Source: a virus
Length of the DNA stretch: 25,768 bases
Reading direction: 5' to 3' (one strand)
IMG/VR virus record: IMGVR_UViG_3300010399_000076
Span: 1 to 25,768 of that record
In this document: piece after piece, positions 3,419 to 4,245 of the stretch
Numbering within the stretch: the stretch's first letter is position 1
Layout: every line of letters starts with the position of its first letter
Notes under the pieces: generated by a model
The model's database searches: none
Seen by the model: only the letters and a program-made list of their open reading frames with translations
What the model was told of the DNA's origin: nothing
Made by a program: the position numbers and the translations under genes

Positions 3419-3722
3419 GCGAATTCTAGTGACCTTGCAAATTAGTTGGCGCGTGCGTCCAGTCCAGGTTGCGCGTGCCCGGTGATCGCTGGCGCGCAGA
3501 TGATTCTGGTCGATTCCAGAATGATGCTTAGCACGCAATCTCCCATGATATTGCGAGGATAGCGTGCTAAGCGCGTTCGCTCATACGCGCATGCCAGAAC
3601 GATGCTTAGCAGTCTAAGTGCGTGATTCCATTGGCCGAATGGTGCGGTGATTCTGGAATTCCGATTCTTCTCCGTGGTCGCACGCTAGCCCGCTAGCTAG
3701 CCCTAGCTAGCAGTCTCTCTAT

Positions 3723-3753
3723 TCTCTCTCTCTCTCTCTCTCTCTCTCTCTCT
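3723..3753. repeat. (TC)15 dinucleotide tract
   Basis: Thirty-one bases of alternating TC, preceded by a shorter TCTCTCT at 3714-3720, sit almost exactly on the axis of the surrounding inverted duplication. A homopurine/homopyrimidine mirror tract like this can form triplex or unwound DNA and varies by slippage. Confidence 0.95.
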
Positions 3754-3841
3754 AGGGACTGACCGTGGACGTGGGCGGGCGGGGTACCGCGGGCACGAAG
3801 CAGAATCGTGATTCCAGAATCAAACTCACTTTCCGTTAATG

Positions 3842-3922
3842 ATATTCACTAGATAAGGTGCTAAGCATCGTTCTGGCGTCCGCGTTCAAGCGATCTTGCT
3901 AAGCACCTTATCTAGTGAATAT
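3842..3922. repeat. 26-bp inverted repeat nested in the right arm
   Basis: Arms 3842-3867 and 3897-3922 are reverse complements with one mismatch in 26 (at 3863), separated by 29 bases. Each arm ends inward with a TGCTWAGCA motif. It could extrude as a cruciform or bind two dimers. The corresponding pair of positions in the left arm of the large duplication is only weakly conserved. Confidence 0.9.
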
Positions 3923-4245
3923 GTCAGGGGAATCGGTGCTAAGCATCGTTCTGCTCGCGTCCAGAATCATCCGCTCATGCGCGGTCACTCACATTCAATG
4001 TTATCACGCACTTAGCATGCTAAGCGCCCGCGATTCTTCTGGGACGCTGGCCCAGCGTGGTCGCTCGCCGGGCGATTGCTTAGCATGCGACGCTTAGCAC
4101 TCGCTAGCATGCTTAGCACGCAACTAGTTGATTTGATTAGTGTGGGCTAGAGTGCTAAGCACCGATGCTAAGCGCCCAGCCGCATGCTTAGCACGCTAGC
4201 GGGCGCTTGCTAAGCACTCTGGGCTAGCCGCTAGCCTAGCCGCAC

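Follow-up and report, generated by a model that had tools for sequence, protein, structure and literature searches.

The window analysed here, i.e., the whole stretch of 25,768 nt, is a fragment of an uncultured podovirus-like phage, and the non-coding gap that separates a leftward gene from the terminase operon, which reads rightward, contains a long imperfect dyad whose two arms are true copies of one inverted duplication, the boxes within them having diverged least. Judging from its sequence features, the element may be an origin-like, initiator-binding dyad with a low-complexity centre in a divergent junction, a reading to which we assign a probability of roughly 0.4. A replication origin had also been among the roles listed in the preliminary description of this DNA; it is retained here as the leading reading, with the reservations that many relatives are devoid of the dyad and that no replication initiator gene was recognized in the 25.8-kb fragment upon comparison of 20 ORFs with PHROGs and 10 with Pfam.

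With an axis sum of 7470, the left arm (3482-3690, plus strand) paired with the right arm (3779-3988, minus strand) at 136 of 209 base pairs, each base p being set against the complement of 7470-p, and hence the gap-free inverted pairing of about 65% identity claimed in the preliminary description was reproduced exactly. The top-scoring segment (3482-3681 with 3789-3988) reached a score of 70 (match +1, mismatch -1), whereas 150 dinucleotide shuffles of 3300-4900 gave a mean of 12.6 and a maximum of 17. This shuffle control, which had been proposed along with the original claim, thus ruled out a chance origin of the dyad. The columns under motif matches agreed between the arms in 59 of 66 cases and the remaining columns in 77 of 143; for the latter, permutation gave a mean of 36 and did not attain 77 in any of 20,000 trials. 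Because the non-motif columns agree to this extent, the dyad is best regarded as an old inverted duplication rather than as a set of motifs alone. The earlier suggestion of an old duplicated element was accordingly borne out, while its companion, that only the motifs had resisted divergence, proved overstated: the motif columns were kept most, but the other columns were clearly conserved as well.

The centre of the dyad is occupied, as originally described, by a (TC)15 tract (3723-3752, plus strand), which places TC on the strand reading as TerL mRNA and is the sole TC/GA tract of at least six units in the window. The spacing of 78 nt between the composite sites was likewise recovered in both the left arm (3513/3591) and the right arm (3857/3935). 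Within the right arm, a nested 26-nt inverted repeat (3842-3922; 3842-3867/3897-3922) was 96% complementary, and an additional duplicated sub-unit was located at 3604-3633/3996-4025. The inverted duplications of the region, which nest and overlap, measure 26-130 nt. The GC content of 3800-3999 was 45-49%, versus 67% for the whole window.

Seventeen GCTWAGC boxes were located between 3526 and 4452, six of them in the dyad and 11 more continuing to 4452, and the region therefore reaches past the 3482-3988 interval originally delimited. The window contained 18 such sites versus a mean of 1.3 in 100 shuffles, and all six boxes in the dyad form exact mirror pairs (3526/3938, 3566/3898, and 3604/3860). 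The presence of 17 boxes in 0.93 kb constitutes a repeated-box array of the type known from iteron-type origins, and we infer that GCTWAGC may be bound by an initiator. A second box, RATTCYR, derived from the GATTCTGG/ATTCCAG boxes of the window, was found at 10 sites in the dyad (3502-3968; GATTCTGG, ATTCCAGAAT and similar), including three mirror pairs (3502/3962, 3649/3815, and 3654/3810). Eleven RATTCYR sites lie within 100 nt of the dyad versus 11 in the rest of the window.

The gap itself (3326-4863) was judged to hold no credited gene, comprising only ORFs of 60-86 aa and a 123-aa ORF overlapping its left edge, and a small gene with a good ribosome site begins, by eye, near 4864. On the left, the gap adjoins a minus-strand 353-aa ORF (2264-3325) with an N-terminal zinc-type motif, which showed 33% over 88 aa to a junction gene of the relative L315 (E = 2e-9 in a two-sequence comparison). 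The only match of a leftward 501-aa ORF was to a PHROG without assigned function (1.1e-7), and the ORF showed no homology to the second of the junction genes of L315. The array is bracketed by a 16-mer, TTCGCTTGACAGCGCA, that occurs in two exact inverted copies (3408-3423 and 4457-4472) with TTGACA facing outward. The former belongs to a putative leftward promoter (3390-3423, minus strand) having TAGTCT 17 nt on by eye, and the latter marks a putative rightward -35 region (plus strand) with no clear -10 by eye.

That the 17 GCTWAGC boxes fill the interval between the inverted 16-mers, continuing past the dyad up to no more than 10 nt from the rightward TTGACA, would be in agreement with an operator or enhancer of a divergent switch, in which a regulator on GCTWAGC and RATTCYR couples leftward and rightward transcription and the TC tract acts as a looping hinge. 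However, a consensus promoter scan returned 0 sites despite the TTGACA 16-mers on both sides, the rightward -10 was poor by eye, and the corresponding dyads of L105 and L138 lie, also by eye, between two leftward genes and between convergent ones, respectively; moreover, the microsatellite or AT-rich centres and the DnaA boxes described below would be left unexplained by a pure operator. We thus consider this explanation rather unlikely. As for the genetic switch suggested at the outset, the placement of the dyad between divergently read genes was upheld, whereas the promoter scan was negative.

On the right, the ORF-poor junction lies 5' of the terminase operon as in the Zobellviridae-type arrangement, with terS starting at 5492. 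The genes here, all on the plus strand, are those of an HNH/LAGLIDADG-like endonuclease (5007-5492; phrog_5046 HNH endonuclease, 1.6e-23; LAGLIDADG by eye; no Pfam match), the terminase small subunit (5492-6052; phrog_2538, 9.5e-7), and the ATPase part of the terminase large subunit, TerL (6429-7595; phrog_38, 1.1e-28), followed further rightward by those of an endolysin and an SU10-type portal. TerL seems to be split, a nuclease-like ORF (by eye) being located about 5.6 kb on at 13216-13986, with the endolysin and other genes in between; this second ORF had no Pfam match, and MW202554 likewise carries two TerL CDSs. Past the terminase genes, a 1001-aa ORF (10361-13366) contains a divergent InlB B-repeat domain (PF18998, 1.7e-10). 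Near the other end of the window, the minus-strand ORF 215-934 matched phrog_17568, labelled thymidylate synthase (4e-14), and showed weak dual-specificity phosphatase similarity (best Pfam PF22784, 1.1e-5, below the cut-off). No tRNA was found in the window, and an Rfam search gave no match at the gathering threshold. The maximum of the cumulative GC skew coincides with the switch of the coding strand, and for this reason the skew provides no independent support for an origin.

Between the junction and TerL, a GC-rich block (4327-4425, plus strand) common to some relatives is a candidate packaging or terminus element. A profile built on three seeds picked by eye (the window, G007, and L321) found L326 (5e-5), L329 (2e-4), and L317 (1e-3), in each case on the plus strand and 0.9-1.4 kb upstream of the TerL match; L099 was found at 0.19, and no other searched locus reached an E of 1. 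This block seems to be a better packaging candidate than the dyad. The dyad itself could alternatively be a concatemer-junction or genome-end element, i.e., a terminase cut site whose paired sites position two cuts or a hairpin regenerating terminal repeats. Consistent with such a role are the ORF-poor junction upstream of terS/terL, where Zobellviridae bear direct terminal repeats, the single-strand folding of 3482-3988 (507 nt), which was far stronger than that of shuffles (z -10.7), and the occurrence of TC on the TerL strand in the window, L105, L129, L138, and L266. However, L287 has TC on the opposite strand, the separate GC-rich block lies nearer terS and fits packaging better, VpV262 and ICBM1, whose ends are known, possess no dyad, and neither strand displayed a clear excess of G-U-type mismatches (25 of the 65 arm mismatches are transitions, 16 on one strand versus 9 on the other). 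The concatemer-junction role hence appears improbable. The same mismatch pattern gave no clear sign of an RNA hairpin.

Recurrence of the architecture was assessed in relatives of TerL. No DNA-level relative was found in phage records (megablast with 1-25000; blastn with 3300-4900), nor did any emerge when TerL and the product of the 501-aa gene were each used as a single protein query, and TerL relatives of 23-65% identity were obtained from viral contigs. The single match of CAGAAYGATGCTTAGCA in viral_contigs, L007, holds one GCTWAGC and genes that look by eye like those of a T4-type cyanophage, and was taken as chance. The 80 loci of these relatives, 1.01 Mb in total, contained no more than four (TC/GA)6+ tracts (L104, L105, L129, and L138). 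All four lie 1.3-2.2 kb upstream of TerL, with TC on the TerL strand; L104, which starts inside its tract, and L105 seem to be one phage. In L105, L129, and L138, the TC tract centres an imperfect inverted repeat whose letters are unrelated to those of the window.

A scan of up to 5 kb upstream, which covered 63 of the 80 loci and excluded L134 and L161-L176, revealed 19 dyads with a score of at least 20 in 209,655 bp upstream of TerL, including the duplicate pairs L119/L120 and L125/L126 and L113 twice, versus one in 273,539 bp downstream (binomial p = 1.5e-6). In 18 of 21 new loci (L325, L334, and L335 left out), five dyads were found in 65,102 bp upstream versus none in 66,758 bp downstream. 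Since the downstream DNA is coding-rich, a whole-locus control was added, for which both sets were combined and four likely duplicates left out. The resulting 77 loci contained 22 dyads in the 262,929 bp lying up to 5 kb upstream of TerL versus seven in the remaining 741,955 bp (p = 3e-8), a result as strong as that of the first control, and six of the seven outlying dyads lie 5.6-8.5 kb upstream of TerL and one downstream. Where 2 kb or more of upstream sequence was available, 16 of 41 loci carried a dyad.

When the comparison was confined to non-ORF DNA, the upstream and other dyads numbered 8 versus 3 (p = 0.13) with a mask of at least 80 codons, 14 versus 4 (p = 0.008) with at least 120, 16 versus 4 (p = 0.001) with at least 150, and 20 versus 4 (p = 8e-5) with at least 200; an earlier run including duplicates gave 9 versus 3 (p = 0.08). 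The excess upstream of TerL is clear, yet it partly reflects the location of non-coding DNA. Low-complexity tracts promote slippage, and the weaker excess against non-coding DNA alone, together with the nested and overlapping duplications in the window and the unrelated arms in different phages, would fit a scenario in which template switching repeatedly produced duplications in a non-coding gap that evolves fast, the symmetry itself being a functionless by-product. Against this stand the far better agreement of the motif columns than of the others and the recurrence upstream of TerL, only 1 of 29 dyads being downstream, and we regard such an origin of the symmetry as very improbable.

The centres of the recurrent dyads consist of (TC)n in L105, L129, L138, and L266, (AC)n in L103, and (AC)n(AG)n in L315, and are AT-rich in L131, L327, L328, and MW202554; a CTTCTTC-type centre was also seen among the upstream dyads. 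In L315, the closest relative (65% TerL identity), the dyad about (AC)n(AG)n is flanked by CCGGAACGTTCCGG palindromes on nearly the same axis. Longer dyads than that of L315 were found 1.6-1.7 kb upstream in L327, L328, and L330, and in L316 and L326 the distance between dyad and TerL is 6.2-6.4 kb. No dyad with a score of at least 18 was detected in L097 or L321, and none of at least 16 anywhere in G007 (circular, 51% TerL), which has short inverted repeats next to a TC/TA tract. The first rightward gene past the G007 junction (L179:12605-12869) presumably resembles DUF2829/Tad2-type proteins. L144, a more distant relative, has strong dyads with scores of 46 and 22 at about 5.6 and 8.5 kb upstream of TerL.

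Scanning of viral contigs for (TC)15 yielded at least 102 tracts with flanks, eight of which were dyad-centred (score of at least 16) versus 1 of 1020 control places; with only eight dyad-centred among the 102 tracts listed, the presence of the element cannot be deduced from a TC tract by itself. The best dyad-centred tract among the 102 listed, that of L266 (score 61), lies beside a terS-terL-portal set by eye, and its TerL candidate had 606 phage-record matches, with five annotated as terminase large subunit and 10 as hypothetical among the 15 matches listed. For the five best TC dyads listed, a TerL-like ORF was present 1.3-3.3 kb off in L266, L287, L210 (the L129 contig), and L271 (the L105 phage), and none was present in the 4.3-kb locus of L191. 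Six further loci (L282, L241, L296, L211, L300, and L216) had weak terminase/portal matches and no dyad of at least 16, the tracts of L282 and L241 being at locus ends.

In ten annotated phage and viral genomes, dyads were located 0.8-2.3 kb upstream of TerL in MW202554, BK063670, and PQ867845 (scores 45, 37, and 103, respectively). None was found in VpV262, ICBM1, A-4L, 1.139.A, or ANMV-1, and MW202692 and SIO1 had a weak dyad elsewhere only, none being in the SIO1 junction. A second dyad in MW202554 (score 20) and one of 18 in BK063670 are both away from the junction. The circular Cobavirinae record PQ867845 (L313), related to SIO1, has a near-perfect 104-nt inverted repeat (1-104/315-418) in the same junction, to be taken with caution as its arms begin at base 1 of the record. 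In BK063670 (L041), a methanogen-associated virus, ten copies of CGCCGCTA occur within 0.8 kb, part of a weak dyad (9378-9514).

Regarding the boxes, neither letters nor motifs are kept in the relatives. GCTWAGC was not enriched in any of 15 other elements or junctions tested, and TGCTWAGCA was present in 0 of 8 whole records of TerL relatives; in L315, two of its four GCTWAGC lie in the junction (p = 0.02). The comparison of homologues proposed in the preliminary description therefore had a divided outcome, the letters and motifs largely not being kept and the position and architecture recurring in part of the relatives. RATTCYR was enriched (p < 0.05, uncorrected) in 6 of the 15 (G007, L103, L111, L113, L125, and L133) and not enriched at p < 0.1 in the other nine (L105, L106, L119, L124, L127, L129, L131, L138, and L142). 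Of the 360 motifs obtained by permuting ATTCYR, the three shifted forms of this motif itself took ranks 1-3 with the window excluded. The form of the motif was fixed after viewing the arms of L113, L111, and L133 and G007, such that the test on those is partly circular. With the motif fixed, three of six further elements gave p < 0.02 (L311, L266, and L287) and three nothing below 0.1 (BK063670, PQ867845, and L191). The densest RATTCYR cluster sits immediately right of the element in L315 and away from it in L322, L327, L328, and L330. Because the degenerate form was chosen after some arms had been seen, the apparent sharing of RATTCYR is weighed as supportive, not decisive. TerS was rejected as a follower of the motif, its homologues linking loci with and without it.

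We also searched for TGCTWAGCA arrays elsewhere. In viral contigs, 32 stretches carry three copies of TGCTWAGCA in the space of about 100 nt, versus three stretches for a control palindrome of the same composition. All 32 arrays are spanned by an ORF, which in 31 cases was by eye a replication-type protein, mostly of one family, with the array in a linker. Seven of the array-spanning proteins were scanned, and six matched PHROG replication-initiation/primosomal families with E below 1e-14, that of L011 matching such families weakly (0.0014). In L011 and L033, the boxes occupy two reading frames of one gene, from which selection appears to act at the level of DNA rather than protein; two frames are also occupied in L016, perhaps through a frameshift. 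By analogy only, the GCTWAGC box is thus a candidate initiator site. The single exception among the 32, a TGCTTAGCA array with a GCAATTGCT-like sequence at L034:5590-5656, adjoins a very AT-rich stretch, and its 76-aa spanning ORF was taken as spurious. Bacterial and archaeal genomes gave 52 stretches of the triple array, mostly other repeats, with three (Bartonella) in phage primosomal-type genes by eye. In Collinsella sp. AK_207A, many TTGCTAAGCA repeat clusters on several contigs, including ten loci (L046, L048, L054, L055, L065, L069, L075, L078, L082, and L090), resemble a genome-wide repeat family.

No convincing DnaA box was found in the window or its dyad. Across 21 element regions, DnaA boxes (TTATCCACA) numbered three in 9,698 bp versus three in 382,619 bp of the rest, the former being borne by two elements (MW202554 with one and L113 with two). 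L321, a 54% TerL relative having no dyad, has a run of three perfect DnaA boxes in its junction (1580-1610), spaced 11 nt apart.

The origin reading is favoured by the exact mirror pairing of the GCTWAGC boxes in a dyad far above the shuffles, the recurrence upstream of TerL, the low-complexity centres, the DnaA boxes of a few relatives, and the TGCTWAGCA arrays in viral replication-type genes. It is disfavoured by the failure to recognize an initiator gene in the fragment or a good DnaA box in the dyad of the window, the smaller excess in non-ORF DNA, and the relatives devoid of a dyad. From the observed anatomy, statistics, and recurrence, we infer for the protein, the melting, and the replication step the following course for an origin-like dyad. 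Phage-encoded initiator molecules would bind the mirror-paired boxes and fold the two arms together, the (TC)n, (AC)n, or AT-rich centre would be melted or extruded, and the phage replisome would load at the opened centre and run outward. The same box-binding protein may also tune the divergent promoters, as suggested by the extra GCTWAGC boxes running to the rightward putative promoter. Against this course, G007, which lacks such a dyad, encodes its own polymerase, primase, and helicase, so that initiation need not be of the iteron type. Initiator and boxes would co-evolve, so that letters change between phages and the symmetry, centre, and position stay.

Replication start sites and junction organization are, to our knowledge, largely unknown for phages of this kind. 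We tentatively propose, at somewhat less than even odds, an undescribed class of control element, namely a long degenerate dyad that is centred on a microsatellite or AT tract and precedes the terminase operon, which would serve as a replication start, possibly joined with a concatemer junction. With similar reserve, the class may be carried by many members of a broad podovirus-like clade, its letters turning over completely as the binding protein co-evolves. If true, this would supply a replication start in phages otherwise assumed to begin like T7. If the element is an origin, the combination of dyad, low-complexity centre, and position could find origins in metagenomic phages having no shared letters, the box sets would be direct bait for the initiator, and architecture would be kept while sequence is not, a case that ordinary alignment misses.

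The preliminary description knew of no named phage element with this layout, and likewise no account of a microsatellite-centred dyad 5' of the terminase operon in a phage was recognized in the open-access literature. The half-site TTAGCACTC/GAGTGCTAA of CIRCE, the HrcA operator, is one that we take to resemble some boxes of the window; the operator itself (TTAGCACTC-N9-GAGTGCTAA) was rejected, with 0 matches at up to three mismatches. In lambda O-type and similar phage origins, the iterons lie inside the initiator gene. The window shares with them short palindromic boxes in an array, TGCTWAGCA being identical to that in the arrays of L008, L011, L016, L019, L026, L033, and L038; unlike them, its array is non-coding, the dyad part is mirror-symmetric about the TC tract, and no initiator is recognized in the fragment. 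In herpesvirus oriS/oriL origins, initiator sites flank a low-complexity AT spacer, which is an analogy of layout only, with no homology claimed, and the phage arms differ in being longer and degenerate, with centres of (TC)n, (AC)n, or AT. Within Zobellviridae, direct terminal repeats of 138 nt in VpV262 and 172 nt in ICBM1 have been described (PMC6775973). The window resembles these two phages in its ORF-poor junction between two gene arms upstream of the terminase operon and differs in having a dyad, which those genomes lack. In roseophage SIO1, our scan (centres up to 300 nt) gave one dyad, score 18, at 7598-7741, by position inside the annotated tail fibre gene. According to the cobavirus paper, inverted repeats of 251-637 nt near the SIO1 ends, once presumed to act in replication, were incompletely recovered on re-sequencing and dismissed as misassembly (PMC6775973); within the open-access literature, they are the nearest likeness recognized to the dyad described here.
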